Below are positions 1,982 through 25,586 of a stretch of DNA of 34,987 bases, piece after piece. The notes beneath the pieces were generated by a model that worked only from the letters and a program-made list of their open reading frames with translations, made no database searches and was not told where the DNA came from. This stretch comes from an uncultured Bacteroidales bacterium (GTDB taxonomy: Bacteria; Bacteroidota; Bacteroidia; Bacteroidales; UBA932). How positions within the stretch are numbered: position 1 is the stretch's first letter; every line of letters starts with the position of its first letter. Location of the stretch: the NCBI GenBank assembly GCA_946415345.1, contig CAMKRY010000008.1, positions 1 through 34,987 of the forward strand. Direction: 5' to 3'. Made by a program: the position numbers and the translations under genes.

Positions 1982-1988
1982 GAGACCT

Positions 1989-4104: not shown

Positions 4105-4107
4105 TTA

Positions 4108-4139: not shown

Positions 4140-4160
4140 CGATGCATAATTATTTGTGAT

Positions 4161-5540
4161 ATGGATTTTGTTGATAGAAAGAAAGAGCAACAGCGACTTA
4201 AAGAGCTTCTAAACAGCGGTTCTCCCAGGTTCGTCATCGTAAGGGGACGACGCAGAATTGGGAAGTCGGCGCTGATAGGTAGGGTGCTGAAGGACAGCGA
4301 TATTTATTTTGAGGCTGACAGAACGGCCGCGCCCAATCAGATGCTCTTGTGCTCACAAGTCATCAGCAGGAGGTTTCCGGGCTTTGCTGATGCCGTTTAC
4401 ATGGATTGGAAGGCGCTATTGAAAGCCATCAATCACAGGGTGACTGAACCCATAACCGTTTGTCTGGATGAGTTTCCTTATCTTGTTGAGAACACACCAG
4501 CTTTACCGTCTATAATACAGGGGCTACTGGATGATGATAAAGATCCGGTAAAATATAATTTGGTCCTTTGTGGCTCCTCTCAGCAAATGATGTACGACCT
4601 GTCTCACGACGAGTCTTCTCCTTTGTTTGGGAGAGATGATTCCGATTTCAATATGAGGCCGATAGCAGCACCATTCCTCTCTGAAGCCTTAAATCTGGAT
4701 GCTCAAGAGACAGTGGAGAACTATGCTGTATGGGGAGGCGTACCGCGTTACTGGAAGCTCAGGGAAGATTGCTCCAGCCTGAAAGAGGCCATTAATACGC
4801 ATATCTTTTCTAATCTTGGGGCGCTGTATGAGGAGCCGCTTCATCTTTTCCGTGACGACATTAAAGACCCCGTAAAAACGGCAACCATTATGTCCATTGT
4901 CGGGAACGGTATCCATCGCCTTTCAGAGATAGCTTCTAGGTGCAATGAACCCGCCACAAACCTCTCGCGTCCGCTGGCCAAACTATTGGATCTGGGGTAT
5001 CTGGAAAAAGATATTCCTTTTGGAGAATCGCCCAAATCAAGCAAAAAAAGCCTATATCAGATAGCGGACCCTTTTCTTAGTTTTTATTACAAATTCGTTC
5101 CGGCAAACCGGTCCTTTATCGAGATGGACCGCAGGCTGCCGCTTGAAGAAGCTCTGGCCGATAATCTATCCTCACATATCGGATACTGGTGGGAGCATTT
5201 GTGCCGGGATGCGGTATCCGGGAACCGAATTGACGGAGTTGTCTTCGGCAAAGCCTCCCGATGGTGGGGAAAGGTTCTTCTTGAAGGAGAGGAAAAGCCC
5301 CGCGACGTTGAGTTGGATGTGGTGGCAGAGTCTATAGATGGAAAGACTATCTTGATTGGAGAATGTAAATGGTCCACTGGCGAAAACGGACGTCTTTTGA
5401 CGCGGCAGCTGGAAAAGATTGCTCATAGTCTCCCGTTTACACAAGGTAAAAAAGTATTATTCAAACTGTTTACTAAGAATCGCCCGGAAGAAGACCAGGG
5501 TAATTCCCTTCTTCCTGCCGATGTTTTGGGATTACTATGA
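4161..5540 (+). CDS. AAA-family ATPase with C-terminal DUF234-like domain
   Basis: A protein of 459 residues from the chosen start MDFVDRKKEQQ. It belongs to the ATPase_2/AAA_14 type of archaeal-like ATPases common in gut Bacteroidota. The Walker A motif is GRRRIGKSAL (about residues 27-36) and the Walker B motif is VCLDEFPYL. The middle has a winged-helix part (HRLSEIASRCNEPATNLSRPLAKLLDLGYLEK). The C-terminal third is DUF234-like with a PD-(D/E)XK-type signature (VELDVVAE...ILIGECKW), suggesting a nuclease fold. The biological role of this family is not settled. The gene stands alone, with its own promoter, between an exonuclease relic and hairpin repeats, which fits an accessory gene that moves between genomes. 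The first 27 residues of the ORF-track version precede the promoter and are rejected. Confidence 0.85.
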   Translation: MDFVDRKKEQQRLKELLNSGSPRFVIVRGRRRIGKSALIGRVLKDSDIYFEADRTAAPNQMLLCSQVISRRFPGFADAVYMDWKALLKAINHRVTEPITVCLDEFPYLVENTPALPSIIQGLLDDDKDPVKYNLVLCGSSQQMMYDLSHDESSPLFGRDDSDFNMRPIAAPFLSEALNLDAQETVENYAVWGGVPRYWKLREDCSSLKEAINTHIFSNLGALYEEPLHLFRDDIKDPVKTATIMSIVGNGIHRLSEIASRCNEPATNLSRPLAKLLDLGYLEKDIPFGESPKSSKKSLYQIADPFLSFYYKFVPANRSFIEMDRRLPLEEALADNLSSHIGYWWEHLCRDAVSGNRIDGVVFGKASRWWGKVLLEGEEKPRDVELDVVAESIDGKTILIGECKWSTGENGRLLTRQLEKIAHSLPFTQGKKVLFKLFTKNRPEEDQGNSLLPADVLGLL

Positions 5541-9378: not shown

Positions 9379-10239
9379 ATGTGGGTGTTCCTGATCATCG
9401 GATCGGCGATTCTGCTCGGTCTTTATGATGTCGCGAAGAAGCATTCCCTCGCCCGGAATGACGCCCTGACCGTGCTCCTGTGCGCGACGGCGCTGTCGAC
9501 CCTTTTCCTCAGCCCGTGGCTCGTGATGGAGCCGGGAACGGTGCAGGGGCATCTCTGCCTGGTGTTCAAGGCGGTGCTGGTAACCTGCTCCTGGGTGAGC
9601 GGCATGCTGGCCCTCGGTCTCCTTCCCATCACCCTTGTCAGCACGATGAAGGCGTCCCGGCCGGTGCTGGTGCTCATTTTCTCTATCGTCCTGTTTGGCG
9701 AACAGCTCAACGCCTGGCAGTGGGGCGGCTCCGTGCTGGCCCTCGCGGCCATTTTCCTGCTGAGCATCACCGGCAAGAGCGATGGCGTTCAGTTTACCCG
9801 CAGCCGCGGCATTCTCCTGCTGACCCTGTCGATTCTCGCCGGCGTCGCGAGCGCTCTCTACGACAAGCATATCCTGCAGGGACTCCATCTCACGCCGCTG
9901 TTTGTCCAGAGCTGGACCAACCTCTACATCACCCTGCTGCTCCTGCTGTGGATCGCCCTCCGGCGCATGTTCTCCCCGGGGTCCGGCAAGCCCTTCCGGT
10001 GGGACTGGACCCTCGTGCTGATCGCCGTGCTGATCACCGGTGCCGACGCGCTCTATTTCTTCGCGGTCCATACCGACGGCGCGCCCCTGTCGTTGATTTC
10101 CATGATCCGCCGCAGCAGCGTCATCGTGACCTTCATCGCGGGCGCCGTCTTCTTCCGCGAAAAGAACGTCGGCCGCAAGTCCATCGCCATGGCTGTGATG
10201 CTCGTCGCCATGATATTGATTTTCATCGGCAGCAGATAG
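9379..10239 (+). CDS. EamA/DMT-superfamily transporter
   Basis: A protein of 286 residues made almost entirely of about ten hydrophobic segments arranged as two repeats of five, the layout of drug/metabolite transporters (EamA). Examples are VFLIIGSAILLGLYDVAKK at the start, LALGLLPITLVSTMKASRPVLVLIFSIVLFGE at the end of the first half, and SLISMIRRSSVIVTFIAGAVFFREKN in the second. The LFGE and FFREKN ends of the fourth helices are typical of the superfamily. The substrate cannot be inferred. It starts 13 bases after the protease stop with no promoter of its own, so it is probably transcribed with the protease and ended by the terminator at 10263-10290. Confidence 0.82.
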   Translation: MWVFLIIGSAILLGLYDVAKKHSLARNDALTVLLCATALSTLFLSPWLVMEPGTVQGHLCLVFKAVLVTCSWVSGMLALGLLPITLVSTMKASRPVLVLIFSIVLFGEQLNAWQWGGSVLALAAIFLLSITGKSDGVQFTRSRGILLLTLSILAGVASALYDKHILQGLHLTPLFVQSWTNLYITLLLLLWIALRRMFSPGSGKPFRWDWTLVLIAVLITGADALYFFAVHTDGAPLSLISMIRRSSVIVTFIAGAVFFREKNVGRKSIAMAVMLVAMILIFIGSR

Positions 10240-10262
10240 GCGGTTCGTCGCAAGGAAAAGCA

Positions 10263-10330: not shown

Positions 10331-12931
10331 ATGAAAATCCGCATTTCCATCCAGTACAATACCGCCTGGGGCGAGGAGGTCGTTCTCGCAGCCGGGAAGA
10401 AAGTCTATCCGATGGAGTTTACCTTCGGCGGCCTCTGGCAGGCCACCTTGCCCGGATCCGCCCTCAAGGACGGCCAGCTCTATGGTTTCCGCATCGTCCG
10501 CGGCAGCGAAACCGTCCGCACGGAATGGCGCAAGCACCGTTTTACCGCTCCGGCGACGGCCCCCAAAGACGCTGTCATTCTCCGCGAGCGCTGGATCGAC
10601 CGCCCGGCTAACTCCGCCTTCTGGAGCAGCGCCTTCACGGACGTCATTTTCCGCCGGGATAAGGATGTGCATAAGGCTGTTGACGGGAATCTGACCCTGC
10701 GCGTCCCTGCGGCGGAGGTCCGTCCCGGCGAAGCCGTCGGCATCGTCGGCAGCGGCAAGGCCCTCGGCGACTGGAAGAAAGCCAAGCTCCTTTCCGACGC
10801 GGAGTTCCCGTGGTGGAGCATCACCCTCAACGTGAAGGAACCCTTCTCTTATAAATTCGTCATCGCGGACCGCAAGACCGGCGAAATCCGCCTCTGGGAG
10901 AACGGTTCGAACCACTGCTTCGCTGAAATCCCGGGCGCCGGCGTGCATGTCATCGATGCGGCCGAGGCTCCGGTGTTCCCGACGCTGCCCTGGCGCGGCG
11001 CGGGCGTTGCCGTTCCGGTCTTCTCCCTCCGCACGGAGGACGGCTACGGCGTCGGTGAGTTCAACGATATCAAAAAGCTCGTCGACTGGGCGGAAAAGAC
11101 CGGCCAGAACGTGATCCAGCTGCTTCCGGTCAATGATACGACCATGACCCACAAGTGGCAGGATTCCTACCCTTACAACGCCGTTTCCTCCTTCGCGCTG
11201 CATCCGCAGTTCCTCAACCTGCAGGCCATCGGCATCAAGGCCGATGCCAGGTTCAAGGCCCGCCGCGCCGAGCTCAACGCCCTGCCGAAGATCGACTATG
11301 AGGCCGTGAACGACGAGAAACTCGCCTATGCCCGCAAGGCCTTCGAAAAGGCTGCCGCCGACCTCGAATCCCCGGCCTACAAGGCCTTCGTCGAAGAGGA
11401 CAAAATCTGGCTCCTCCCGTACGCCGCCTTCTGCGTTCTGCGCGATCAGAACGGCACCGCCGACTTCTCCAAGTGGGGTTCCATGGCCAAGTACAGCCCC
11501 AAGAAACTGCACGATTTCGTCGCGGCGAATCAGAAGGACGTCGATTTCTACTGCTGGCTGCAGTATCAGCTCGATATCCAGCTCAAGGATGCCGTCGCCT
11601 ACGCCCACAAGCACAATGTCGCCCTCAAGGGTGACCTCCCGATCGGCGTGAGCCGGACCAGTGCCGACGCCTGGACGTTCCCCGAGCTCTTCCACATGGA
11701 TTCCCAGGCCGGTGCACCGCCGGATGCCTTCTCCGTCAACGGACAGAACTGGGGTTTCCCGACATACAACTGGGAGAAAATGGCCGAGACCGGCTTTGCC
11801 TGGTGGAAAGCCCGCCTCCGCAAGATGAACGCCTACTTCGACGCCTTCCGCATCGACCACATCCTCGGCTTCTTCCGCATCTGGGAGATTCCGCTCCATG
11901 CCGTCCACGGCCTTCTGGGGCACTTCAACCCCGCCCTGCCGTACTCGGCGGATGAGCTCCGCGGCCGCGGCTTCGACGTCAGCAACGGCGCTTTCGTGAA
12001 CCCGCTGATCAGCGACTGGTCCCTCGAGGAAATCTTCGGCGACCTTGCCGGCGAAGTGCGCACGAAATACATCCGCGACGGGAAGCTCGTTCCCGCGGTG
12101 GACACCCAACGGAAGGTTCTGGAGAAATTCACCGGCGACGACCCGAAATCCTGCCGCCTGCGCGACGGCCTGATGGGCCTGCTGGAGGATGTCCTTTTCA
12201 TCGAGGACCCGCGCCACAAGGGCTACTACCACCCGCGCATCTCCGGCCAGTTCACGCTCAGCTTCCGCGCCCTCGACGGCTGGCTGAAGGACAGTTTCAA
12301 CGCTCTCTACAACGAGTTCTTCTACCGTCGCCACAACGACTTCTGGAAGGACTCCGCCTACCGGAAACTCCCGTCCCTGCTTCGCTCCACGGGCATGCTC
12401 GCCTGCGGTGAGGACCTTGGCATGATCCCGGACTGCGTGCCGGACACCATGGCCGACCTCAACATCCTCTCGCTGGAGATCCAGCGCATGCCTAAGGCGG
12501 TTACCGAGACCTTCGGCAACCCGGCCGCCTATCCGTACTGGTGCGTCTGCGCGACGGGTACGCACGATACGTCCCCGCTCCGCGCCTGGTGGGAGGAAGA
12601 CCGCGAGGCGACGCAGCTCTTCTACAACACGATGCTCCACGAGGGCGGCGAGGCTCCGTACTTCTGCGAGCCGTGGGTGGCCGAGCGCGTGGTCCGCGAC
12701 CATATGAACTGCCCCGCCATGCTGACGATCCTGCCGCTGCAGGACTACCTCGCCACAGACGGCGAAGTCCGCTTCAATGGCGATCCGGCCGAGGAACGCA
12801 TCAACGTGCCGGCGATTCCGCGCTACTACTGGCGCTATCGCCTCCACTGCACAATTGAGTCCCTCGTGGAGAACGAAGGACTCTGCAGCAATATCAGATC
12901 AATGATTCTCGGGGGCGGCCGCGGCTGTTAG
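10331..12931 (+). CDS. malQ: 4-alpha-glucanotransferase (GH77) with two N-terminal CBM20 domains
   Basis: 866 residues with no signal peptide, so cytoplasmic. It transfers alpha-1,4-glucan segments between malto-oligosaccharides and releases glucose (disproportionation). Two CBM20-type starch-binding domains lie at about 1-115 and 118-215 (VGIVGSGKALGDWKKAKLL and FSYKFVIADRKTGEIRLWENG are typical). The GH77 barrel follows from about 225. The nucleophile is in FDAFRIDHILGFFRIWEIP (about D509), the acid/base in ACGEDLGMIPD (about E694), and the third carboxylate in TGTHDTSPLRAWWEED (about D746). The CBM20-CBM20-GH77 plan matches the long form found in Bacteroidota and plants (DPE2-like) rather than the shorter enterobacterial MalQ. 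It heads the starch region and is convergent, with a single base between stop codons, with the LytTR regulator. Confidence 0.93.
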   Translation: MKIRISIQYNTAWGEEVVLAAGKKVYPMEFTFGGLWQATLPGSALKDGQLYGFRIVRGSETVRTEWRKHRFTAPATAPKDAVILRERWIDRPANSAFWSSAFTDVIFRRDKDVHKAVDGNLTLRVPAAEVRPGEAVGIVGSGKALGDWKKAKLLSDAEFPWWSITLNVKEPFSYKFVIADRKTGEIRLWENGSNHCFAEIPGAGVHVIDAAEAPVFPTLPWRGAGVAVPVFSLRTEDGYGVGEFNDIKKLVDWAEKTGQNVIQLLPVNDTTMTHKWQDSYPYNAVSSFALHPQFLNLQAIGIKADARFKARRAELNALPKIDYEAVNDEKLAYARKAFEKAAADLESPAYKAFVEEDKIWLLPYAAFCVLRDQNGTADFSKWGSMAKYSPKKLHDFVAANQKDVDFYCWLQYQLDIQLKDAVAYAHKHNVALKGDLPIGVSRTSADAWTFPELFHMDSQAGAPPDAFSVNGQNWGFPTYNWEKMAETGFAWWKARLRKMNAYFDAFRIDHILGFFRIWEIPLHAVHGLLGHFNPALPYSADELRGRGFDVSNGAFVNPLISDWSLEEIFGDLAGEVRTKYIRDGKLVPAVDTQRKVLEKFTGDDPKSCRLRDGLMGLLEDVLFIEDPRHKGYYHPRISGQFTLSFRALDGWLKDSFNALYNEFFYRRHNDFWKDSAYRKLPSLLRSTGMLACGEDLGMIPDCVPDTMADLNILSLEIQRMPKAVTETFGNPAAYPYWCVCATGTHDTSPLRAWWEEDREATQLFYNTMLHEGGEAPYFCEPWVAERVVRDHMNCPAMLTILPLQDYLATDGEVRFNGDPAEERINVPAIPRYYWRYRLHCTIESLVENEGLCSNIRSMILGGGRGC

Positions 12932-12932: not shown

Positions 12933-13682
12933 CTACCGTTCCATCCAGTTGATGAACGCGTCGGCGCGTGCACGACTGACCGTCAGGTCCGTGCAGGCGT
13001 CGATGTCTTTTTTCAGAGCGATGCGGAAGCGTCCGCCGATGAGTTTTCCCATGCTCTCGATGGCCTGCTCGTTGATGATGCAGGAGCGGGAGATGCGGAA
13101 GAAGAGGTTGGGGTCGATGTTGCCCTCGATGGTGTCGAGGGAGTCGTCCAACACGAAACTCTTGTTCTCGAAGGTGACGAGATAGGAGTTCTTGGCTTCG
13201 GAATAGAAATAGGCGATGTTACGCACCTCGACGGGCACAATCTGGTCGTTGAGGCGGATGAGAAGGCGCTCCCGCGGGTTGATAATCCGGGCGGGTTCGC
13301 CGACGGCGAGGCGCTCTTTCGCCCGTCCGACGGCCCGTTTCATGCTCTCGGGGTCGAGCGGCTTGAGCAGGTAGTCCAGCGCCTCGGCCTCGAAGGCCTT
13401 GACCGCATATTCGCTGTAAGCGGTCGTCATGATGACATGGGCGGTGACGGTCACCTGCTTGAAGATGTCGAAGCTGTTGCCGTCGGACAGTTCGACGTCC
13501 ATGAAGATGAGATCCGGGGCGAGCGGATCATCCCCGGCGTGGGTTTGCAGGAATTCGACAGAATCCTTCACGGAACTGGTCTCGCCGACCACGGTAATCT
13601 CCGGGAAGAGGTTGTGAAGCATTCCCTTCAGATTCTGGCGGGCGATGGGTTCGTCTTCGATGATGAGTACTTTGATATCCAT
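12933..13682 (-). CDS. LytTR-family response regulator
   Basis: 249 residues. The receiver domain occupies about 1-125, with the acidic pair in LIIEDEP, the phosphorylation aspartate in LIFMDVELSDGNSF, the threonine in IMTTAYSEY and the lysine in DYLLKPLD. The LytTR DNA-binding domain fills about 145-245 (RLLIRLNDQIVPVEVRNIAYFYSEAKNSY, FFRISRSCIINEQAIESM). LytTR regulators usually bind two direct repeats about two helical turns apart. The gene is the second of a two-gene minus-strand operon, 20 bases after its kinase. Its stop codon is one base from the malQ stop. It sits between malQ and the MFS-susCDE operon, so it is the natural candidate regulator of this starch locus. That assignment is inferred from position and the repeat at 14920-14952. 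Confidence 0.92.
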   Translation of the reverse strand: MDIKVLIIEDEPIARQNLKGMLHNLFPEITVVGETSSVKDSVEFLQTHAGDDPLAPDLIFMDVELSDGNSFDIFKQVTVTAHVIMTTAYSEYAVKAFEAEALDYLLKPLDPESMKRAVGRAKERLAVGEPARIINPRERLLIRLNDQIVPVEVRNIAYFYSEAKNSYLVTFENKSFVLDDSLDTIEGNIDPNLFFRISRSCIINEQAIESMGKLIGGRFRIALKKDIDACTDLTVSRARADAFINWMER

Positions 13683-13702: not shown

Positions 13703-14827
13703 TTAGTCAAGTAAGGGAACGCGGACGGTGAAGTGCTCCCCGTCGCGGATGATTTCTATGTCGCGTTCGGAAATGTCCTGGTAACGGGATTGGATATAGT
13801 GCAACCCGACACCGGTAGACGGGGCGGGGGAGGTGCGGGGGCGGATGTTGTTGCGGATGGTGAGCCAGCCTTTTTCGCTGGTGAGCTCGATGTCGAGCGG
13901 CTGCTCCTTCGAGAAGGCGTTGTGCTTGGTGGCGTTCTCGAGAAGGATCTGCAGCGAGCAGGGGACGATGCGGGTGCGGAGATCCTCGTCGCGGACGGTG
14001 GTGTGGACCCGGATGGAATCGGGGAAGCGGACCGACAGCAGCTGGATGTAGTCCCGGGCGAAGTTCCGCTCGTCCTCGAGGTATACAAGGCTTTCCTTCT
14101 CGTGGACCGTCATGTAGCGGTAGAGCTGGGACAGGCGGCGGAGATAGTCCTTCGCCGCTTTGTTTTCCGGCTCGATCAGTCCGTCGAGGATGTTGAGGGA
14201 GTTGAACAGGAAGTGCGGATTGACGAGGTTCTTGAGCGTGGCGTAACGGAGGTCGGCGCGGTGGCCGAGCTCGCGCTCGTGCATGGCCACGCCGTAGAGG
14301 ACCACGGCGAAAAAGACCGCGAAGAGCACGGCGACGACGTCCACGACGGCTGAAGGGGCCAGGTCGAGGCCCGAGACGGTGAATCCCTCCGATTTGAGGC
14401 TCGCGGCCATGCGGACCAGAAAGACGCAGATGATGGCGAAGATCAGGATGCCGACGCGCCCGCGGGAAAGACGGATGTACCACGCACGGGGGAGGCGGCC
14501 GGTGCACCAGTAGAGGAGCCAGCCGATGAGTTCCGTGGTGAGGATGGTCGCAATCGTGTTGGGGACCCAATCCGCTTCCATGAACAGGTCGAACAGCCGC
14601 GCCAGGGAGGTGCCGAGCAGGAAGCCGCCGATGTTGACGAAGATGATGGCGAAGGCCGTCGCTTCGACGCGGAGCTCGCGGCTGGTGCAGATGATGACGG
14701 TCATCACCATGGTCATCAGGGTCAGCAGGATGGTGTCCGGCACGCCGACCCGGGCGCACAGGGCGCAGACGGCTCCGTGGAGCACCGCGAACAGGTGAAT
14801 GACGTATGAAAGCCGCAATTTCCGCAT
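13703..14827 (-). CDS. LytS/YehU-type sensor histidine kinase (His_kinase family)
   Basis: 374 residues from ATG at 14827; the ORF-track start at 14842 is a GTG that would sit at the transcription start. The N-terminal half holds about six hydrophobic segments and no large periplasmic domain. The cytoplasmic half carries the H box NPHFLFNSLNILDGLIEPENK of the His_kinase (PF06580) family, then a HATPase region with LQILLENATKHN (N box) and STGVGLHYIQSRY (G box). This family pairs with LytTR regulators, as here. With no external domain, it may sense something within or near the membrane, or the activity of another membrane protein. Its promoter faces that of the MFS transporter operon. Confidence 0.9.
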   Translation of the reverse strand: MRKLRLSYVIHLFAVLHGAVCALCARVGVPDTILLTLMTMVMTVIICTSRELRVEATAFAIIFVNIGGFLLGTSLARLFDLFMEADWVPNTIATILTTELIGWLLYWCTGRLPRAWYIRLSRGRVGILIFAIICVFLVRMAASLKSEGFTVSGLDLAPSAVVDVVAVLFAVFFAVVLYGVAMHERELGHRADLRYATLKNLVNPHFLFNSLNILDGLIEPENKAAKDYLRRLSQLYRYMTVHEKESLVYLEDERNFARDYIQLLSVRFPDSIRVHTTVRDEDLRTRIVPCSLQILLENATKHNAFSKEQPLDIELTSEKGWLTIRNNIRPRTSPAPSTGVGLHYIQSRYQDISERDIEIIRDGEHFTVRVPLLD

Positions 14828-14844
14828 GTCAAATCGAAACACTG

Positions 14845-14876
14845 CGAAATTACTTTATTTGCACCAAAAAAACAAA
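14845..14876 (-). promoter_or_regulatory. Promoter of the LytS-LytTR operon
   Basis: On the minus strand TTTG (14873-14876), 20 bases, then TAATTTCG (14845-14852), one mismatch to TAnnTTTG. The ATG at 14827 lies about 18 bases downstream. Confidence 0.5.
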
Positions 14877-14895
14877 TTTTCCGTTCGTCGGAAAA
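14877..14895. promoter_or_regulatory. Inverted repeat beside the kinase promoter
   Basis: TTTTCCG-TTCGT-CGGAAAA, a perfect 7-bp inverted repeat directly upstream of the -33 box of the kinase operon. It has no T run suited to termination in context, so it is a candidate operator. Confidence 0.45.
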
Positions 14896-14919
14896 TACGT
14901 GCGCTCTGTCCGTCGAATT

Positions 14920-14952
14920 CCTCAAATCGCGCTCGGATAGCGTCAAATCGCG
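14920..14952 (+). promoter_or_regulatory. Tandem direct repeat, candidate LytTR operator
   Basis: TCAAATCGCG occurs at 14922-14931 and again at 14943-14952, identical over 10 bases with a 21-base period; a further C two bases before each is also shared. This spacing, two helical turns, is the arrangement LytTR regulators recognise. It lies just upstream of the -7 box of the MFS-susCDE promoter, which lacks a TTTG element. Confidence 0.6.
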
Positions 14953-14962
14953 AAATTATTAT

Positions 14963-14970
14963 TATATTTG
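14963..14970 (+). promoter_or_regulatory. -7 box of the MFS-susCDE promoter
   Basis: TATATTTG, 26 bases before the MFS start. No TTTG lies 19-20 bases upstream (that position reads AGCG), which suggests dependence on an activator. Confidence 0.65.
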
Positions 14971-14996
14971 TTTGATAAAACCGCAAATGTAAAACT

Positions 14997-16334
14997 ATGG
15001 CCAATCGCAAACTGTCCTTCTGGGACATGTTCAATTTGTCCTTCGGCTTTTTCGGAGTGCAGATTGCCTATGCCCTGCAGAGTGCCAACATCAGCCGTAT
15101 CTTTGCGACGCTCGGTGCCGACCCGCACCAGCTGAGCTTTTTCTGGATTCTTCCCCCGCTCATGGGTATGATCGTTCAGCCGCTGATCGGCAAGTTCTCC
15201 GACAAGACCTGGAACAAGATGGGCCGCCGCAAGCCTTATCTTCTCATCGGTGCCATCATCGCCGTCCTGGTGATGATTCTCCTGCCGAACGCCGGCAGTC
15301 TCGGCTTGTCGACATCCTACGTCCTGCTGGGCCTGAATTCCGCCATGTGGTTCGGTCTCTTCGCCCTCATTTTCCTCGACACCTCCATCAATGTGGCCAT
15401 GCAGCCCTTCAAGATGATGGTCGGTGACATGGTAACCGAGGAGCAGAAGACCCAGGCCTACTCCATCCAGAGTTTCCTCTGCAACGCCGGCCAGCTGGTC
15501 GGCTGCCTGGCTCCGTTCCTGCTGACGTCCATCGGCGTCGCCAATGAGGCCCCCGAGGGCGTGATTCCGGATTCCGTCATCTATTCCTTCTACGCCGGTG
15601 CCGTCATCCTCATCCTCTGCGTCGTCTATACCTTCATGAAGGTCAAGGAGATGCCGCCGAAGGAGTACGCCGAATTCCACGGCATCGACTTGGACGCCCC
15701 GAAGGAAGAAGGCGGCGGCAACCTCTTCAAGCTGCTGGTCAAGGCCCCGAAGACCTTCTGGCAGGTCGGTCTCGTGCAGTTCTTCTGCTGGGCGGCCTTC
15801 CTTTATATGTGGAACTACAGCCCCGGCACCATCGCCGCGAACTGCTGGAACACGACCGATACCGCTTCCGCGGATTATCAGGCTGCCGGCAACTGGGTGG
15901 GCGTCGTTTTCGCCTTCCAGGCCGTGGGCGCCGTGCTCTGGGCTCTCGTCCTCCCGAAGTTCAAGACCGTCAAACTCGGTTACATCGTCAGCCTGCTGAT
16001 CGGTGCCGCTGGCTTCGCCTCGCTGCTCTTCCTGCATGACAAATACGCCATCTGCGTTTCCTATACCCTGATCGGCATGGCCTGGGCCGCGATGCTCGCC
16101 TATCCGTTTACGCTGCTCACCAACGCCCTGGAGGGCAATCCTTACATGGGCAGCTACCTCGGCCTGTTTAACTGCACGATCTGCCTGCCGCAGATTGTCG
16201 CAGCGGCAACGGGCGGCGCCGTCCTCCATTTGCTGGGCAGCGCACAGCCGCGGATGATGCTGATGGCCGGTATTTTCCTTGTCGCCGCAGCCTGCTGCGT
16301 GCCGCTGGTGAATACGAAAAAATCAACCAATTAA
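14997..16334 (+). CDS. MFS sugar transporter, probably for maltose or malto-oligosaccharides
   Basis: 445 residues with about twelve membrane segments. It starts FWDMFNLSFGFFGVQIAYALQSANISRIFATLGADP, an opening shared by SLC45/GPH-like sugar porters (relatives often read FWxMxxGFxGIQxxxxLQ). The loop between helices 2 and 3 is DKTWNKMGRRKPYLLIGAI, matching the family's SDxxxxRxGRRRPYxLxGA. Members near starch genes in Bacteroidota take malto-oligosaccharides across the inner membrane by cation symport. It is the first gene of the operon, 26 bases upstream of susC, so it delivers SusA products to the cytoplasmic GH77. The exact substrate is inferred from context. Confidence 0.85.
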   Translation: MANRKLSFWDMFNLSFGFFGVQIAYALQSANISRIFATLGADPHQLSFFWILPPLMGMIVQPLIGKFSDKTWNKMGRRKPYLLIGAIIAVLVMILLPNAGSLGLSTSYVLLGLNSAMWFGLFALIFLDTSINVAMQPFKMMVGDMVTEEQKTQAYSIQSFLCNAGQLVGCLAPFLLTSIGVANEAPEGVIPDSVIYSFYAGAVILILCVVYTFMKVKEMPPKEYAEFHGIDLDAPKEEGGGNLFKLLVKAPKTFWQVGLVQFFCWAAFLYMWNYSPGTIAANCWNTTDTASADYQAAGNWVGVVFAFQAVGAVLWALVLPKFKTVKLGYIVSLLIGAAGFASLLFLHDKYAICVSYTLIGMAWAAMLAYPFTLLTNALEGNPYMGSYLGLFNCTICLPQIVAAATGGAVLHLLGSAQPRMMLMAGIFLVAAACCVPLVNTKKSTN

Positions 16335-16360: not shown

Positions 16361-19300
16361 ATGAAAAGGATTATCACCGCAATGGCCGTCGTGCTGTCTT
16401 GCATCTTCGGTCAGACCGTATTCGCCCAGGGCGGATATCAGGTCAAGGGCGTTGTAGTCGACGAGCTCGGCCCGGTCATGGGCGCCGTCGTTCTCGAACA
16501 GGGAACGGGCAACGGTGTCTCCACCGGTCTGGACGGCGACTACGTCCTGATGGTTTCCGGTCCTGACGCGATCGTGGAAATCAGCTGCATGGGTTTTGCC
16601 ACGCAGTCTTTCCCGGCCAACCAGGTTCCCGCGACCGTCACCCTCGTGGATGACGCCAACTTCCTCGACGAAGTGGTCGTCATCGGTTATGGTACCGTCA
16701 AGAAGAGTGACCTCACCGGTTCCGTCGCGACGGTCAAGGCTGACGAAATCAACAAGGGTGTCATCACGACGCCTGCCGACCTCCTCCGCGGCAAGAGCGC
16801 GGGTGTCGTCGTTACGTCGGGTTCCGGTATGCCGGGCGCCGGCGCTACGGTCCGTATCCGTGGCGGCGCTTCCCTGAATGCCTCCAACGACCCGCTGTAC
16901 ATCATCGACGGTCTGCCCGTTTCCAATGACGGCATTTCCGGCATGAGCGACCCGCTGTCCTCCATCAACCCCGAGGATATCGAGTCCTTCACCGTCCTCA
17001 AGGATGCCTCCGCGACCGCTATCTACGGTTCCCGTGCTTCCAACGGCGTTATCGTCATCACCACGAAGAAGGGTGCCAAGGGCCATGCCTCCACCATCCC
17101 TCACATCACCGTGGACCTGACGACCTCCGTCAACACCATCGCCAAGTACCAGGATGTCCTGACCGGCGACGAGATGCGTACCCTCATCGCCCAGCGCGTG
17201 GCTGACGGCAAGATCGCCCCTGCAGCGCTCGAGGCTCTCGGCACCGCCAACACCGACTGGCAGAAGGAAATCTACCGCACCGCCCCGACCGTGGACGCCA
17301 ATGTTTCCGTCAACGGCAACCTCGCGATCGGCGAGAGCATCACCCTCCCGTACCGCGTTTCCGGCGGCTTCACCATGCAGCAGGGTACCCTGAAGGGCTC
17401 CCAGATGAACCGTGGAACGGCGGCTGTCGCCCTCTCCCCGACCTTCTTCGAGAAGCACCTCAGCGTCAACCTCAACGGCAAATACACCTTCGCCAAGAAC
17501 TGGTACGCCAACCAGGGCGCCATCGGCGAGGCTCTCCGCTATGACCCGACCCAGCCGATTTACGCTACGGATGAGGAAGGCGGCCTCCACGGCTACCGCA
17601 TCTGGCGTGGTACGGATGGCAATCCGAACACCATGGCTACATCCAACCCGGTCGCAACCCTGAACGAGAAGGAAGACTGGGCCACCGCCAACCGTTTCAT
17701 CGGCAACGCACAGTTCGACTACAAGATTCACGGCTTCGAGGATCTCCGCCTCAACCTCAACCTCGGTATCGACTGGGCAAAGAGCTCCGGCGAAACGGAA
17801 GTGGTTCAGGAGTCCGAGCAGTCCTTCCACAATACCCAGCATCAGTATAAGGATCCCGTGAACGATAAAATCAATCACGCAAGCGGTTCCCATACCGACT
17901 ACCACTACGGCCGTCAGGATACGACCCTCGAGTTCTATGCCGACTACAACAAGACCTTCGGCAAGCACTTTGTCGACGTGATGGGCGGTTACAGCTGGCA
18001 GCGTTTCTATAATGACAGCGATTCCTATACTTATTGGCTCAGCGATCCGACCCATGTTATCGGTGACTCCGAAGGGAAGGGTGAGTACTTCCTTGTTTCC
18101 TTCTTCGGACGTGCCAACTATAGCTTCGGTGACCGCTACCTGATTACCGCTACGATTCGTCGTGACGGTACTTCCCGTTTCCAGAACCACAAGTGGGGTC
18201 TCTTCCCGTCCGTGGCTCTCGGATGGAACGTCAAGAAGGAATCCTTCATGCAAGGTCTTGATCTCCTGTCCACTTTGAAGCTCCGCGCTTCCTGGGGCCA
18301 GACCGGTCAGCAGTCCGTCGGTGGCTACTATGACACCTTCGCTACCTTCTACCGCAACCAGCTCGGTTCCTACTATCAATTCAACGGCGAGACGATCATC
18401 CCGATGACGGCCAAAGGTTACAACGCCGACCTGAAGTGGGAGACCACCACGACCTACAACGTCGGTCTCGACTTCGGCTTCTGGAACGACCGCCTCACCG
18501 GTAACATCGACTTCTACAAGCGCGACACCAAGGACCTGCTCTCCTATGTTCAGGTTTCTGCCCTGTCTAACCTAACGAACTACCTCAATACGAACATCGC
18601 TTCCATGACTAACACCGGTGTCGAGCTCGAACTCAACGGCATCATCATCGAAAAGCGTGACATGAGCTGGACGGCCGGTATCAACGCCGCGTGGAACCGC
18701 AACGAGATCACCAAGCTGAACGCCTCCTCCGAGAACAAGGCCGGCGTCCGCACGGGCGGCATCTCCGGCGGTACCGACAACTGGGTCCAGTACCACGACG
18801 TCGGTCATCCGATGAGCTCCTTCTACGTATACCAGCAGGTCTACGACAAGGACGGCAAGCCGATCTTCGGTCAGTACGTCGACCGTAACAACGACGGTGC
18901 CATTACCGACTCCGACCGTTACTTCTACCACAAGCCCTGGGCTGACGTGACCCTTGGTTTCAACACCAACTTCACGTATAAGAACTGGACGGCGGCCCTC
19001 TCCGCCCACGCTTCCCTCGGCAACTGGGTCTACAACAACGTCGCTTCCAACAGCGAAATGTTCAAGGACCTGTGGGTCAACAACTTCATCTCCAACCGTC
19101 TGTCCTCCGCCCTCGATTCCAACTTCGACGACGCTGCGTACATTTCCGACTACTATGTCGAGAACGGTTCCTTCCTCAAGCTGGACAACATCACCGTGGG
19201 TTACACGTTCCCTGAGCTCTTCAAGGTCTTCGGTGACCGCGAGGCTTCCCTGAACGTCTTCGGTACGGTCCAGAACATCTGCACGATCACCGGCTACAAG

Positions 19301-19390
19301 GGCATCGACCCTGAGGTCTTCGGCGGTATCGACGGCACGGTCTATCCTCGCCCGCGTACCTTCGTCATCGGTGCGAAACTTAACTTCTAA
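16361..19390 (+). CDS. susC: SusC-family TonB-dependent outer-membrane transporter
   Basis: 1009 residues. The signal peptide MKRIITAMAVVLSCIFGQTVFAQ precedes a CarboxypepD_reg-like domain (YQVKGVVVDELGPVMGAVVLEQGTGNGVSTGLDGDY). The TonB box region (LDEVVVIGYGTVKKSDLTGSV) follows, then the plug with the SusC signature VRIRGGASLNASNDPLYIIDGLPV and ATAIYGSRASNGVIVITTKKG. A 22-strand barrel ends in RPRTFVIGAKLNF. It imports starch oligosaccharides captured by SusD, with which it forms the lidded pair. It lies 26 bases after the MFS gene and 17 bases before susD. Its assignment to starch rests on the neighbours (GH13, GH77, SusE-type domains). Confidence 0.95.
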   Translation: MKRIITAMAVVLSCIFGQTVFAQGGYQVKGVVVDELGPVMGAVVLEQGTGNGVSTGLDGDYVLMVSGPDAIVEISCMGFATQSFPANQVPATVTLVDDANFLDEVVVIGYGTVKKSDLTGSVATVKADEINKGVITTPADLLRGKSAGVVVTSGSGMPGAGATVRIRGGASLNASNDPLYIIDGLPVSNDGISGMSDPLSSINPEDIESFTVLKDASATAIYGSRASNGVIVITTKKGAKGHASTIPHITVDLTTSVNTIAKYQDVLTGDEMRTLIAQRVADGKIAPAALEALGTANTDWQKEIYRTAPTVDANVSVNGNLAIGESITLPYRVSGGFTMQQGTLKGSQMNRGTAAVALSPTFFEKHLSVNLNGKYTFAKNWYANQGAIGEALRYDPTQPIYATDEEGGLHGYRIWRGTDGNPNTMATSNPVATLNEKEDWATANRFIGNAQFDYKIHGFEDLRLNLNLGIDWAKSSGETEVVQESEQSFHNTQHQYKDPVNDKINHASGSHTDYHYGRQDTTLEFYADYNKTFGKHFVDVMGGYSWQRFYNDSDSYTYWLSDPTHVIGDSEGKGEYFLVSFFGRANYSFGDRYLITATIRRDGTSRFQNHKWGLFPSVALGWNVKKESFMQGLDLLSTLKLRASWGQTGQQSVGGYYDTFATFYRNQLGSYYQFNGETIIPMTAKGYNADLKWETTTTYNVGLDFGFWNDRLTGNIDFYKRDTKDLLSYVQVSALSNLTNYLNTNIASMTNTGVELELNGIIIEKRDMSWTAGINAAWNRNEITKLNASSENKAGVRTGGISGGTDNWVQYHDVGHPMSSFYVYQQVYDKDGKPIFGQYVDRNNDGAITDSDRYFYHKPWADVTLGFNTNFTYKNWTAALSAHASLGNWVYNNVASNSEMFKDLWVNNFISNRLSSALDSNFDDAAYISDYYVENGSFLKLDNITVGYTFPELFKVFGDREASLNVFGTVQNICTITGYKGIDPEVFGGIDGTVYPRPRTFVIGAKLNF

Positions 19391-19392
19391 TC

Positions 19393-19399
19393 AAGGAGG
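19393..19399 (+). promoter_or_regulatory. Strong Shine-Dalgarno site before susD
   Basis: AAGGAGG, 8 bases before the ATG at 19408. Full Shine-Dalgarno sequences are rare in Bacteroidota and none comparable precedes the other genes here. It may raise susD translation relative to susC. Confidence 0.7.
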
Positions 19400-19407
19400 A
19401 TACGACT

Positions 19408-20961
19408 ATGAAAACATTGAAATATATCCTTTCTTCCCTCGCCATCGCCGCTGCGCTGAGCTCCTGCGTCAAGGATCTCGACGTCACGCCGATCGATCCG
19501 AATCTGTCTACCGCTGACAAGGCCCTGACCTCTCCGGAGGATTTTGAGGCCCTCCTCGCCGGTATCTATACGGGTTATGGCACCTCCGGTTATTACGGTC
19601 CTAACGGTGATCCTTCCATTTCCGGTCTGGATGGCGGTATGAGCCAGTATGTCCGTGGCCTGTTCCACCTCTGCGAGCTTTCCACCGACGTCTATGTCTG
19701 CGGTTGGAACGACGAAGGTGTCCCCGCCGTCTGTAAGATGCAGTGGGATGCTTCCACGGGTCTGATCTACTCCATCTACTCCCGTATGTACTTCCAGATT
19801 GCCCACTGCAACGAGTTCATCCGCGAGGCCAACGCCACGTCCGTCAACCTTCCCAAGAAGGATGAGTGGATCGCCGAGGCCCGCGCCCTCCGCGCCCTGA
19901 GCTACTACCACGCCATCGACAACTTCGGTAACGGTCCTTTCGCCGATGAAAATTCCCTCGTGGGGCAGACTCCGAAGCGCAAGACCCGCGCCGAGCTCTA
20001 TGAGTGGCTCGAGACCGAGCTCACGGACATCATCGACAACTCCGCTCTTCCGGCTGCCCGTGCCGCCCAGTACGGCCACATCGACAAGGGCGCTGTCAAG
20101 ATGATCCTCGCCAAGCTCTACCTCAACGCCGAGGTCTACACGGGCACTGCCCAGTGGGGCAAGTGCGCCAATGTCCTCAAGGACCTCATGGATGACGGTT
20201 ACGCCCTCCATACGACCGCCCGTGGCGCCACCTACAATGCCTACCAGGATCTGTTCCTGGCCGACAACGACCAGTGCACCGACGAAATCATCTTCGCGTT
20301 TGAACAGGATGGTACCGACACCCAGAGCTATGGTGTGACCAACTACCTTGTCTTTGCCTTTACGGGTGGTACGATGGATCCTTCCGCTCTCGGTATTTCT
20401 TCCGGTTGGGCCGGCTGCCGCACGACGCCGGAATTCTACCACAAGTTCACCGCCGCTGACAAGCGCGCTCTCTTCTGGACCGACGGACAGACCGAGGATG
20501 TCACCGATTTCGGTGAGTTCACCAACGGTTACGGCTTCCAGAAATACCGCAACATGAATGCGGACGGCACTGCCGGCAAGGCTGCCGGTTTCGTGGATAT
20601 CGACTTCCCGGTGTTCCGCTATGCCGACGTCCTCCTGATGGCCGCCGAGTGCGAAGCCCATGGCGCCGCCGTTGACGGCTATGCCGGCTTCAACGAGGTG
20701 CGTGCCCGTGCCGGTCTCGCCCCGATCGCGACCCCGACCCTCCAGGAAATCCTCGACGAGCGTGCCCGCGAGCTCTATCTCGAGCTCTGGCGCCGTCAGG
20801 ACCTGATCCGTGCCGATCAGTTCACTACCGACAAGTATATCTGGCAGTGGAAGGGCGGTACCCACGACGGCGAAGCTGTCGAGGATTACAAGAACCTCTT
20901 CCCGATTCCGAACTCCGACATGATGGTCAATCCGAACCTCAAGCAGAACGAAGGTTATTAA
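19408..20961 (+). CDS. susD: SusD-family starch-binding outer-membrane lipoprotein
   Basis: 517 residues. The signal peptide MKTLKYILSSLAIAAALSSC has the lipobox LSSC, followed by VKDLDVTPIDPN, the usual SusD opening. The N-terminal part has TPR-like helices (IAHCNEFIREAN, WIAEARALRALSYYHAIDNFGNGPFADE, the last being a strong SusD signature). The C-terminal part has FPVFRYADVLLMAAECEAHG, then LQEILDERARELYLELWRRQDLIRADQF, and ends NPNLKQNEGY. Aromatic residues around 60-110 could form the glucan cradle. It forms the lid on SusC and hands over oligosaccharides. It sits between susC and the SusE-like gene (12-base gap). Confidence 0.95.
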   Translation: MKTLKYILSSLAIAAALSSCVKDLDVTPIDPNLSTADKALTSPEDFEALLAGIYTGYGTSGYYGPNGDPSISGLDGGMSQYVRGLFHLCELSTDVYVCGWNDEGVPAVCKMQWDASTGLIYSIYSRMYFQIAHCNEFIREANATSVNLPKKDEWIAEARALRALSYYHAIDNFGNGPFADENSLVGQTPKRKTRAELYEWLETELTDIIDNSALPAARAAQYGHIDKGAVKMILAKLYLNAEVYTGTAQWGKCANVLKDLMDDGYALHTTARGATYNAYQDLFLADNDQCTDEIIFAFEQDGTDTQSYGVTNYLVFAFTGGTMDPSALGISSGWAGCRTTPEFYHKFTAADKRALFWTDGQTEDVTDFGEFTNGYGFQKYRNMNADGTAGKAAGFVDIDFPVFRYADVLLMAAECEAHGAAVDGYAGFNEVRARAGLAPIATPTLQEILDERARELYLELWRRQDLIRADQFTTDKYIWQWKGGTHDGEAVEDYKNLFPIPNSDMMVNPNLKQNEGY

Positions 20962-20973
20962 TAGATTCCAACC

Positions 20974-22512
20974 ATGAAGAAAATTCTTTCCATCATATCT
21001 GCAGGCCTGCTGGTAGTGCTGGCAGCCTCCTGCAACAAGGATGAAAAGGCTACGTTCGACCCGTCTGACGTGACGGCTCCCGTTCTCGGGACAGTCAACG
21101 TCGGCTCGGATATCGTAGTCAACTACACGCCCGCCGTCTTCTCGATGGATTTCAACGAGAAAATGAATACCTATCATACCCTCGGTATGGTGGCCGTCAA
21201 CGATGAGAAGTGCGACGTGACCCTTTCCAACGCCAAGGACAGCGGTACTTCCCTCAAACTCTCCGGCAAGAACATGACCGCCGCCCTCCAGCTCCGCGGC
21301 TTCGAGATGGGCGAATCGGTCAAGGTTTCGATCGTCGTCCGCGCCTCCATCCAGGATCCGTCCAAGGGCGTGACCAACGGCTACACCGATTCCGAGGACA
21401 GCTATGAGTTCAACTGGACCCTGAAGGAAGAATCCAAGCCCGGTGCACTCCCGACGCACAACGGTGTCCGTGTGTACATCGACGATCAGACCGGTTGGGA
21501 TGCCATCGCCCTCTACATGTGGGGTGATAAAAACGACTTTGGCGGTGGCTGGCCTGGCATGGCGGTCGCTGGTACCGAGTCTCTCGGCGGCACCGATTGG
21601 AAGTACTTCGAATACGATGACACCATCTTCGGTCTTGCTGAGCATCTGATTTTCAACAACAACGGTGGCGGAACCCAGCTGGCCGACTATGACATCACCT
21701 TCGAGGCGGGTGTCGCCGACTACTGGCTGACCGTAACTGCCGAGGGTGTCGAGGCTGCGGAAGCTCCGGCCGTTGGCGGAGTCGATCCGTACGCCGGCTG
21801 GGAACCGACAGCGGTTTGGAGCGTTATCGGATCCATCGCCTCCACGGGTAACAGTTGGGGTCAGGATGAGCCGATGCTCACGGATGGTACATGGTATGTC
21901 TGCCGCGGCATCGAACTCGCTACTACGGACCAGTTCAAGTTCCGCAAGGATCATGACTGGGGTACCAACTTTGGCGCTGCTTCTTCTATCACTGAGGAAC
22001 CGTATGTCGTGACCCTGGGCGAAGAACTGGAAGCTGGTGCCGGCGGCAAGAACCTCGCCGTTCCTGCTGACGGTAAATACGACCTGCTCCTTAACCCGGA
22101 TGCCGGTGTGTATAAAATCATCGAAGCCCAGGAAGCCGTTGCTGCTGATTTCTATGCAGGTTTCGAGGAAACCGAGGTCTGGAGCGTCATCGGTTCCATC
22201 GCTTCTACGGGCAATGGCTGGAATCAGGACGAACCGATGGTTACAGACGGAACCTGGTATGTCTGCCGCGGCATCGAACTTGCCACTACGGACCAGTTCA
22301 AGTTCCGTAAGGACCATGACTGGGGCACCAACTTCGGCGCAGGCCCTGAAATCTCAGAGGAACCCTATGTGGTCACCCTTGGTGAGGAACTTCCTGCCGG
22401 TCCCGGCGGCAAGAATCTCGCTGTGGCAGAGGATGGTACCTATGACCTCCTGCTGAACCCCGAGGATGCTGTTTACAAGATCATCAAGTCCGGCGACGAT
22501 CCGGCTCTCTAG
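20974..22512 (+). CDS. SusE/SusF-like surface starch-binding lipoprotein with a tandem-duplicated domain
   Basis: 512 residues. The signal peptide MKKILSIISAGLLVVLAASC has the lipobox AASC. An N-terminal Ig-like domain (about 30-155) is followed by a CBM26-like starch-binding module (about 160-265: VRVYIDDQTGWDAIALYMWGDKNDFGGGWPGM). Two SusE/SusF-type domains follow, starting YAGWEPTAVWSVIGSIASTGNSW and YAGFEETEVWSVIGSIASTGNGW. These two are nearly identical over 121 residues, including FKFRKDHDWGTNFGA. It should bind starch at the cell surface, not cleave it. Third gene after the SusC transporter; a terminator pair follows. Not a one-to-one orthologue of B. thetaiotaomicron SusE or SusF, so no symbol is given. 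Confidence 0.88.
   Translation: MKKILSIISAGLLVVLAASCNKDEKATFDPSDVTAPVLGTVNVGSDIVVNYTPAVFSMDFNEKMNTYHTLGMVAVNDEKCDVTLSNAKDSGTSLKLSGKNMTAALQLRGFEMGESVKVSIVVRASIQDPSKGVTNGYTDSEDSYEFNWTLKEESKPGALPTHNGVRVYIDDQTGWDAIALYMWGDKNDFGGGWPGMAVAGTESLGGTDWKYFEYDDTIFGLAEHLIFNNNGGGTQLADYDITFEAGVADYWLTVTAEGVEAAEAPAVGGVDPYAGWEPTAVWSVIGSIASTGNSWGQDEPMLTDGTWYVCRGIELATTDQFKFRKDHDWGTNFGAASSITEEPYVVTLGEELEAGAGGKNLAVPADGKYDLLLNPDAGVYKIIEAQEAVAADFYAGFEETEVWSVIGSIASTGNGWNQDEPMVTDGTWYVCRGIELATTDQFKFRKDHDWGTNFGAGPEISEEPYVVTLGEELPAGPGGKNLAVAEDGTYDLLLNPEDAVYKIIKSGDDPAL
21790..22500 (+). repeat. Recent 363-bp tandem duplication inside the SusE-like gene
   Basis: Unit 1 starts at 21790 and unit 2 at 22153, a period of exactly 363 bases (121 codons). 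Long blocks are near identical at the DNA level, for example TGGTATGTCTGCCGCGGCAT in both. The low silent divergence points to a recent duplication or to gene conversion. Confidence 0.85.
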
Positions 22513-23611: not shown

Positions 23612-25495
23612 ATGAAACGCAAAGCATTATACACCTTAATTCTTATTGTGATGGCATTGACGGTGACGGCTGCTCCGGCAAGGGGGCAGAAGGCTTCGAT
23701 TCAGCGGGTGGAACCGCTTTCCTGGTGGGTCGGCATGCCGACGCCGCTGCAGCTGATGGTCCAGGGACCGGGCATCGGTGCCTACGATGACGTCAGCGTC
23801 GAGGGCGAGGGCGTCGCGGTCGCCGCCGTGACGAAGGCCGACAGCCCGAACTATCTCTTCATCGATCTCGCCATTGCTCCGGACGCTACTCCGGGCATGT
23901 ATACATTATTATTTAAGAACGGGCGGAAGAAGATCAAGTATTCCTATGAGATTGCCACGCGGGGCGAAGGCTTCCGCGGGGAGAGTTTTTCCACGAAGGA
24001 CCTGATCTACCTGATCGTTCCCGATCGCTTTGCCAACGGCGATCCGGACAACGATTCCACGCCCGATACACGTGACCCCCTGGCCCGCGAAAAGGCCTCC
24101 GGGCGCCATGGGGGCGACCTCCAGGGCATCATCGACCATCTTGACTATATTGCCGACCTCGGCGCGACGGCCATCTGGTCGACGCCTCTTCTGGAGGACA
24201 ACGATCCGCGCGGCTCCTACCATGGCTACGCCTGCACGGACTACTACCATATCGATTCCCGCTTCGGCACGAACGCCCTCTACCGCGACTACGTCCGCCG
24301 GGCGCACAAGAAGGGCCTGAAGGTGATCATGGACGTGGTCACGAACCATTGCAGCAGCGTCCACTGGTGGATGGCGGATCTGCCTTTCAAGGATTGGGTG
24401 CATGTCAAGGATACGCTCGAAATCACCAACCACGCGATGTCGGTGGCGATGGATCCGAACGCCTCGGTGGCGGATACGAAGCGGATGGAGGAGGGCTGGT
24501 TCGTCCCCTCGATGGCGGATATGAACCTCGACAATCCGTTTGTTCTCAGGTACTTCCAGCAGTGGGCGATCTGGTGGATCGAATATGCGGGCCTCGACGG
24601 CATCCGCGTCGACACCTGGCCCTACAACGAGAAATACGCCATGGCGAAATGGGCCAAGGCGGTGACCGACGCCTATCCGGGCCTGAACATCGTCGGCGAG
24701 ATCTGGAACCTTTATCCGGACATGGTCGCCTACTGGCAGAAAGACAACCCCAACCGCGACGGATTCAACTCCCAGCTGCCGTCGGTGATGGATTTCCCGC
24801 TGATGACGGCGATGGTCCAGGCCCTATCCCAGCCGGGCGAGGGGAGGGACAGCCGCAACGGTGACATCGGCGCGGTCTATCAGGCGCTGGCCCATGATTT
24901 CGTCTACCAGGACCTCAGCCACATGATGATTTTCCTCTCGAATCACGACGCCGCCCGCATCGGCGATGTCTTCGAGGGGCATCCGGAGAAACTGAAGCTC
25001 GGCATGACGATGCTGGCGACCCTCCGCGGCATCCCGCAGCTCTTCTATGGCGACGAGATGATGTTCATGACCGGCAATCCGCGCCGCGACGACGGTCGCC
25101 TGCGAATGGACTTCCCGGGCGGCTGGCCTGGCGACAAGCTCAATCTCTTCACGGAAGAGGGACGCAAGGCCGATAAGCAGAAGGCGGAGCTCTACAACTA
25201 CTGCCGGACGCTGTTCCAGTGGCGGAAGGGCAAAGAAGTGATCCACAACGGCAAACTGCTTCACTTCCTGCCGGAGAAGAATACCTATGGCTATTTCCGG
25301 TATAATGAGAAGGAAGTCGTGTTTGTCTTCCTGAACAATTCCGACAAGGACGTGACTGTTCCGTGGACGCGCTACAGCGAGATTTCCGCCGGCCTCGGCG
25401 AGGGACGCAATGTCCTGACAGGAGAGCGGATGCGGGTCTGCGACGAGACGCCCGTGCCCGCCGGCGAAGCGCTTGTCGTGGAATTTGTCCGCTGA
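23612..25495 (+). CDS. susA: SusA-like periplasmic GH13 neopullulanase/alpha-amylase
   Basis: 627 residues. The signal peptide MKRKALYTLILIVMALTVTAAPARGQ has no lipobox, so the protein is periplasmic. A cyclomaltodextrinase-type N-terminal domain (about 28-118: IQRVEPLSWWVGMPTPLQLMVQGPGI) is followed by the GH13 barrel. Landmarks are LIVPDRFANGDPDND, MDVVTNHC, the nucleophile in GIRVDTWP (about D334), the acid/base in IVGEIW (about E363) and the third carboxylate in LSNHDAARIG (about D446). A beta-sandwich domain ends the protein. It should cut alpha-1,4 bonds in imported malto-oligosaccharides or pullulan fragments. The start has almost no leader behind its promoter. A downstream start would destroy the signal peptide. 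Confidence 0.9.
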   Translation: MKRKALYTLILIVMALTVTAAPARGQKASIQRVEPLSWWVGMPTPLQLMVQGPGIGAYDDVSVEGEGVAVAAVTKADSPNYLFIDLAIAPDATPGMYTLLFKNGRKKIKYSYEIATRGEGFRGESFSTKDLIYLIVPDRFANGDPDNDSTPDTRDPLAREKASGRHGGDLQGIIDHLDYIADLGATAIWSTPLLEDNDPRGSYHGYACTDYYHIDSRFGTNALYRDYVRRAHKKGLKVIMDVVTNHCSSVHWWMADLPFKDWVHVKDTLEITNHAMSVAMDPNASVADTKRMEEGWFVPSMADMNLDNPFVLRYFQQWAIWWIEYAGLDGIRVDTWPYNEKYAMAKWAKAVTDAYPGLNIVGEIWNLYPDMVAYWQKDNPNRDGFNSQLPSVMDFPLMTAMVQALSQPGEGRDSRNGDIGAVYQALAHDFVYQDLSHMMIFLSNHDAARIGDVFEGHPEKLKLGMTMLATLRGIPQLFYGDEMMFMTGNPRRDDGRLRMDFPGGWPGDKLNLFTEEGRKADKQKAELYNYCRTLFQWRKGKEVIHNGKLLHFLPEKNTYGYFRYNEKEVVFVFLNNSDKDVTVPWTRYSEISAGLGEGRNVLTGERMRVCDETPVPAGEALVVEFVR

Positions 25496-25520
25496 CGGCG
25501 ACCTCCCGTCGTGAAATCTG

Positions 25521-25550
25521 CCCGGATTCTTTGAATTCCGGGCATTTTTT
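25521..25550 (+). terminator. Terminator of the SusA-like gene
   Basis: CCCGGATTC pairs with GAATTCCGGG (one bulged base) across TTT and is followed by CATTTTTT. The loop and the 3' arm overlap the -33 element of the next promoter. Confidence 0.8.
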
Positions 25551-25560
25551 GCTAATATTG
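25530..25560 (+). promoter_or_regulatory. Promoter of the SusG-like gene
   Basis: TTTG at 25530-25533, 19 bases, TAATATTG at 25553-25560 (one mismatch to TAnnTTTG). The start codon at 25587 is 27 bases further on. Confidence 0.55.
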
Positions 25561-25586
25561 CTTGTTAATAACACTTTTCTCTGACC

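Follow-up and report, generated by a model that had tools for sequence, protein, structure and literature searches.

The starch-uptake operon in the window, by which we mean the whole analysed stretch of 34,987 nucleotides (contig 8 of a 1.34-Mb genome that is 56% complete), is probably controlled by a LytTR two-component system through an array of CCGTTCGTC-type half-sites. The same kind of switch seems to govern the starch-uptake operon of many uncultured Bacteroidales from gut and rumen, a large group in which the conserved repeat CCGTTCGTC recurs every 21 bases. LytTR control is very likely at the level of the genus and probable in the window species. An earlier note on this DNA had proposed that a LytTR system governs the sus operon via direct repeats; genus-wide comparison bears out this proposal with other bases (CCGTTCGTC-type), but not the element that the note had named, TCAAATCGCG, which is probably not an operator.

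SusR control is the textbook account of starch uptake in gut and rumen Bacteroidales. We found no description of LytTR control of a Bacteroidales sus locus in the literature searched, most subscription journals lying outside its coverage. Regulators of PULs are usually listed as three kinds, namely SusR-like, hybrid two-component and ECF sigma/anti-sigma (PMC3878776), and on our best reading LytTR is a regulator type outside those listed for Bacteroides PULs. In much of a genus, a Sus-type locus appears to have come under a LytTR two-component system whose operator is sharply defined, and such an operator would lead directly to regulon prediction from sequence in abundant uncultured Bacteroidales.

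The starch locus and its adjoining LytTR genes

The following genes make up the locus, with matches to Pfam, NCBIfam and other domain models in brackets.

10331–12931, plus strand: GH77 4-alpha-glucanotransferase with CBM20, on the far side of the regulator genes (domain matches)
12933–13682, minus strand: LytTR response regulator, 249 aa, with receiver and LytTR DNA-binding domains (over the Pfam cut-offs in both cases: Response_reg 60.1 bits, LytTR 57.8 bits)
13703–14842, minus strand: membrane histidine kinase of the PF06580 family (Pfam His_kinase 70.2 bits)
14997–16334, plus strand: MFS (GPH-like) sugar transporter, first gene of the operon (Pfam MFS_1/MFS_2; GPH_sucrose partial)
16361–22512, plus strand: susC, susD and a CBM26-bearing SusE-like gene (TIGR04056, 736 bits; NF033071; CBM26)
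23612–29156, plus strand: cyclomaltodextrinase-type GH13 and SusG-like amylase (domain matches, including CBM58, CBM26 and BACON)

The Pfam and NCBIfam matches confirmed the gene order read from the sequence in the earlier note, with a kinase and a LytTR regulator divergent from MFS-SusC-SusD-SusE. The locus carries the marks of a Sus-like starch PUL: adjoining susC and susD, TIGR04056, a SusD-family protein, CBM26, SusG_CBM58, GH13 and GH77. The susD product reached 392 bits against the SusD model NF033071, under the model cut-off of 725.

The kinase open reading frame begins with GTG at 14842, and the ATG at 14827 (MRKLRL...) is the likelier start. Its translation has a hydrophobic N-terminal half followed by the H-box NPHFLFNSLN. 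The PF06580 domain and H-box agree with the LytS-type kinase named in the earlier note; PF06580 was the sole Pfam match, the 5TM_5TMR_LYT sensor domain was absent, and the hydrophobic half fitted no family. The LytTR DNA-binding domain of the regulator is conserved genus-wide. Among solved structures, those near enough to match were receiver domains and one histidine-kinase fragment only. No second regulator adjoining the sus operon was detected among the scanned window ORFs, in a scan that used no SusR model on a genome 56% complete. Regarding a hybrid two-component system (HTCS) at the locus, no HTCS-type domain was found among these ORFs, and no Y_Y_Y match in the assembled genome.

Elsewhere in the window, two adjoining dCache sensor proteins at the left end (389–3929), one with HAMP and the other a HisKA histidine kinase, form a separate sensory pair, and an ATPase_2/DUF234 protein of an archaeal-type AAA family lies at 4080–5540.

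Half-site arrays across the genus

Regions upstream of the MFS gene were collected from named records and from numerous genomes within the genus, genes were marked by tblastn, and the spacers were read. After duplicate removal, 77 loci had an intact kinase-regulator pair, 13 had a shortened regulator, and 43 had neither; the divergent layout of kinase-LytTR regulator and MFS-susC is widespread, with the regulator adjoining in 77 distinct loci plus the 13 shortened ones. The named MFS-gene relatives were mostly rumen Bacteroidales MAGs, one match (71% identical) being Candidatus Cryptobacteroides merdipullorum, which makes Cryptobacteroides the probable genus.

The genus spacers contain an intergenic half-site, C[AC][AG]TTC[AG]TC, in one to four copies per locus, 21 bp apart. 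Its core, TTC[AG]TC, was present in 89 of the 90 loci with a regulator (intact or shortened) vs 6 of the 43 without (Fisher p = 2e-25). Direct repeats about two helical turns apart, named in the earlier note as typical of LytTR binding, are found genus-wide: a half-site pair in register occurred in 61/90 regulated and 1/43 unregulated loci (p = 4e-14), and the pair spacing in intact systems was 21 in 63 cases and 42 in 23, with hardly any other value.

The core was initially picked by eye, and motif-free counts agree with it. When spacers from regulated loci were scanned for self-similarity at distances of 8–69, the top value, 38.6 per 1000 against a median of 2.0, fell at 21, and another peak stood at 42; the same scan gave no peak at 21 in unregulated spacers. 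The most regulated-specific hexamer, TTCGTC, occurred in 71/90 regulated vs 1/43 unregulated loci.

Kinship was controlled for with an MFS tree built by FastTree, on which the regulator label needed 18 changes. Over random pairings on this tree, operator pairs were concordant in 8.5 on average of nine independent pairs that differ in regulator across supported branches (median p = 0.004). The link between regulator and operator holds on phylogenetically independent pairs.

The half-sites also hold fixed positions relative to the promoter, their starts lying 42, 63 or 84 bp upstream of the -7 box in relatives, with one subset at 74. The first three positions are what an activator bound along a single helical face should give. 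Fewer regulated than unregulated loci had a -33 TTG (4/47 vs 9/34, p = 0.037), a weak depletion.

Among MFS homologues from other families of the order, the 29 loci read had neither an array nor an adjoining regulator. Within the sample, the MFS-sus loci with neither intact nor shortened regulator (L083–L087, L098, L099, L115 and others) are without a LytTR system and without a half-site array; in several of them, GH77 lies directly upstream of MFS-sus and is co-directional with it.

The window's predicted operator and the 10-mer pair

Half-sites in the window were scored with a profile trained without the window and without its nearest relative (L082, MFS 91% identical). The intergenic region 14843–14996 would be the divergent control region, and the elements in and around its predicted operator are as follows.

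14845–14852, minus strand: possible -7 box of the kinase promoter, CGAAATTA on the plus strand and TAATTTCG on the minus strand (tentative; counterpart boxes in relatives)
14880–14889, plus strand: strong LytTR half-site 1, TCCGTTCGTC, 83 bp upstream of the -7 box (highest profile score in the window, 14.85)
14901–14910, plus strand: weak half-site 2, GCGCTCTGTC, in exact 21-bp register (score -3.5, p = 0.024)
14922–14931, plus strand: reported repeat copy 1, TCAAATCGCG (profile score -9.2, p ~0.09)
14943–14952, plus strand: reported repeat copy 2, TCAAATCGCG, on the grid, 20 bp upstream of the -7 box
14963–14970, plus strand: -7 promoter element of the MFS-sus operon, TATATTTG, a perfect TAnnTTTG

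The strong half-site TCCGTTCGTC, with core CCGTTCGTC, is the usual half-site of the genus and is conserved in the nearest relative; by composition, a single consensus half-site in this intergenic region has a chance of about 1%. At +21 the nearest relative has ACATTTTGTC (score 4.5), better than the window's copy at the same place. An out-of-register alternative in the window, TCTGTCCGTC at 14905–14914, scored 8.6 and lies 25 bp from 14880. We predict that the window's array consists of one strong half-site (14880–14889) and a decayed second one (14901–14910).

The promoter claim of the earlier note, a perfect -7 box with no upstream element, was correct: no TTG lies about 15–27 bp upstream of TATATTTG. 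The two identical 10-mers that it described are likewise present, their starts exactly 21 bp apart. This pair is unique in the 1.34-Mb genome, which has one further single copy elsewhere, and a third TCAAATCG at 14829 is out of register with it. Both copies fall exactly on the 21-bp grid of the operator, at offsets +42 and +63 from 14880. Copy 1 lies 41 bp upstream of the -7 box, a position used by half-sites in many relatives; for copy 2, no relative has a half-site at the corresponding place.

The search of related sus loci that the earlier note had suggested went against the pair, which is not conserved where the regulator gene is conserved: neither the nearest relative nor any other relative examined has the copies. 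Across 300 genomes of the genus, only three other TCAAATCG pairs with similar spacing were found, none at a known MFS-sus locus. Absence from relatives ruled out TCAAATCGCG as a conserved element, and its profile score, no better than chance for each copy, together with non-conservation spoke against it as a LytTR half-site. The pair may be a species-specific feature on the operator grid, either extra or decayed half-sites, chance being equally likely.

Whether the pair is a functionless chance repeat in an A+T-rich spacer is evenly balanced. Its absence from every relative, including the closest, favors chance, as does the finding that a repeated 10-mer at any spacing arose in 5.6% of dinucleotide-preserving shuffles of the 154-bp intergenic region, many intergenic regions having been read. 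A repeat spaced 20–22 bp, however, arose in only 0.2% of the same shuffles, a figure that holds per region with many regions having been scanned, and the coincidence with the operator grid is exact.

It is unlikely that the TCAAATCGCG pair itself is the LytTR operator, with its second half-site overlapping the missing -33 element. The exact spacing, the register with 14880 and the position of copy 1 are what such an operator would show, and CAAATCGCG and CAATTCGTC agree at 6/9 bases; nevertheless, the near-invariant terminal TC is replaced by CG, the profile score is that of chance, relatives lack any half-site at about 20 bp from the -7 box, and the pair is missing from all relatives examined.

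Somewhat less likely still is a site for another regulator encoded elsewhere, such as a SusR-like protein or a hybrid two-component protein of AraC type. In Bacteroides, the motifs predicted for HTCS are direct repeats with a mean of 21 bp (PMC3878776), and the spacing of the pair is rare in shuffles; on the other side, the pair is not conserved in the nearest relative and has no second instance in the genome, the assembled half of the genome holds no Y_Y_Y HTCS sensor domain, and 67 or 77 bp separate the centres of predicted SusR motifs (PMC3878776). Because HTCS motifs also average 21 bp, spacing alone cannot name the regulator; sequence and co-occurrence can. The HTCS of PULs share membrane glycan sensing as well as repeat spacing with the system described here, but combine these with an AraC-type DNA-binding domain in one polypeptide, whereas the window encodes a separate PF06580 kinase and LytTR regulator. 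SusR of Bacteroides thetaiotaomicron likewise controls a SusC/SusD/SusG-type starch system, but as a one-piece membrane regulator with widely spaced predicted sites, unlike the two-component pair of the window.

Predicted mechanism, shortened regulators and possible regulon

From the conservation, spacing, position and regulator association of the CCGTTCGTC-type half-sites, we infer a mechanism that covers binding, activation rather than repression, the signal and autoregulation. The operator would consist of tandem LytTR half-sites C[AC][AG]TTC[AG]TC every 21 bp, upstream of the -7-only promoter TATATTTG (no -33 TTG). The PF06580 membrane kinase would phosphorylate the LytTR regulator, whose dimers would occupy the repeats along a single side of the DNA, 42–84 bp upstream of the -7 box. 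Once starch or maltodextrin is sensed, the bound dimers would bring RNA polymerase to the MFS-susCDE promoter. Since these sites overlap or closely neighbour the kinase promoter, which is read from the opposite strand, binding probably also tunes expression of the kinase and regulator. CRAANNTA boxes adjoin the operator in roughly half the relatives, and the minus-strand -7 box on the kinase side often lies 17, 40 or 61 bp before the first half-site, a spacing that suggests autoregulation.

It is very improbable that the CCGTTCGTC array is a repressor site for autoregulation of the kinase-regulator operon and stands only incidentally before MFS-sus: the CRAANNTA box 17 bp before the first half-site in many relatives would place the array over the kinase -33 region, but the half-sites keep fixed distances of 42/63/84 from the MFS -7 box, the pair still stands before MFS in a locus where kinase, regulator and MFS are co-directional (L047), and pairs also precede a pullulanase gene without an adjoining regulator.

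The predicted LytTR control through the array has partial counterparts in three known systems. AlgR/AlgZ of Pseudomonas aeruginosa pairs a LytTR response regulator with a PF06580-type kinase, and the core site of AlgR is identical, CCGTTCGTC (PMC4064291). AlgR sites, however, are scattered, in both orientations and often distant from the promoter, whereas here a fixed 21-bp array stands just upstream of the -7 box of a starch-uptake operon. AgrA of Staphylococcus aureus is a LytTR activator that binds two direct repeats centred near -60 (PMC4227749); it serves quorum sensing at sigma-70 promoters, in contrast to the Bacteroidales -7 promoter and nutrient locus considered here. CoxC of Afipia carboxidovorans joins a membrane sensor to LytTR and has been shown to bind three direct repeats at 18–21 bp intervals (PMC11347149); it represses over the -35 box and senses CO, whereas the window system has a separate kinase and regulator.

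The CoxC-like layout is common to several relatives of the window, which encode one-protein fusions with the membrane part of the kinase joined directly to LytTR, without kinase and without receiver.

L091, 3729–4853: fused membrane sensor-LytTR, 374 aa
L093, 3866–4810: fused membrane sensor-LytTR, 314 aa
L285, 4831–5727: fused membrane sensor-LytTR, 298 aa (LytTR 49.7 bits)

Further loci without a full receiver are L090, L095, L106, L112, L114, L169, L216, L221, L222 and L228. At least some of the 13 shortened loci encode a sensor-LytTR fusion. Half-sites were kept in all 13, and the DNA-binding domains have remained similar. On the MFS tree, the supported branches require at least six changes of the shortened-regulator label. 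Loci with an intact, a shortened or no regulator, whose operators vary accordingly, form a natural series for sensor-operator co-evolution. A broader reading, unlikely as a whole, makes these systems a further class of PUL regulator: LytTR two-component systems with 21-bp arrays would control starch uptake genus-wide and would more than once have been shortened to a one-piece membrane sensor-LytTR protein with an unchanged operator, and in the window species the array would be undergoing rewriting, the TCAAATCGCG copies serving as new half-sites on the old grid.

Operator pairs were also found immediately upstream of a pullulanase-type GH13 gene that neighbours a second susCD pair, with no regulator adjoining (L271, 4691–4720, and L273, 4468–4497; genomes G063 and G024). 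This placement suggests that the pullulanase-type GH13 is a probable second target of the regulator, within a small starch regulon. Genome-wide, the strict two-site pattern matched the sus site and scattered positions, mostly coding, and for that reason the list of likely regulon members was kept to the pullulanase sites.

A candidate second operator before GH77 in the window was rejected. Four weak half-site-like words, spaced 21, 21 and 22, lie at 10176–10249, upstream of the GH77 ATG at 10331; three are in coding sequence, the stretch being mostly within the preceding gene, and they are absent in the nearest relative and most others. In another genome (G140), an operator-like pair lies about 120 bp upstream of GH77 (L286, 980–1009), and GH77 may belong to the regulon there.
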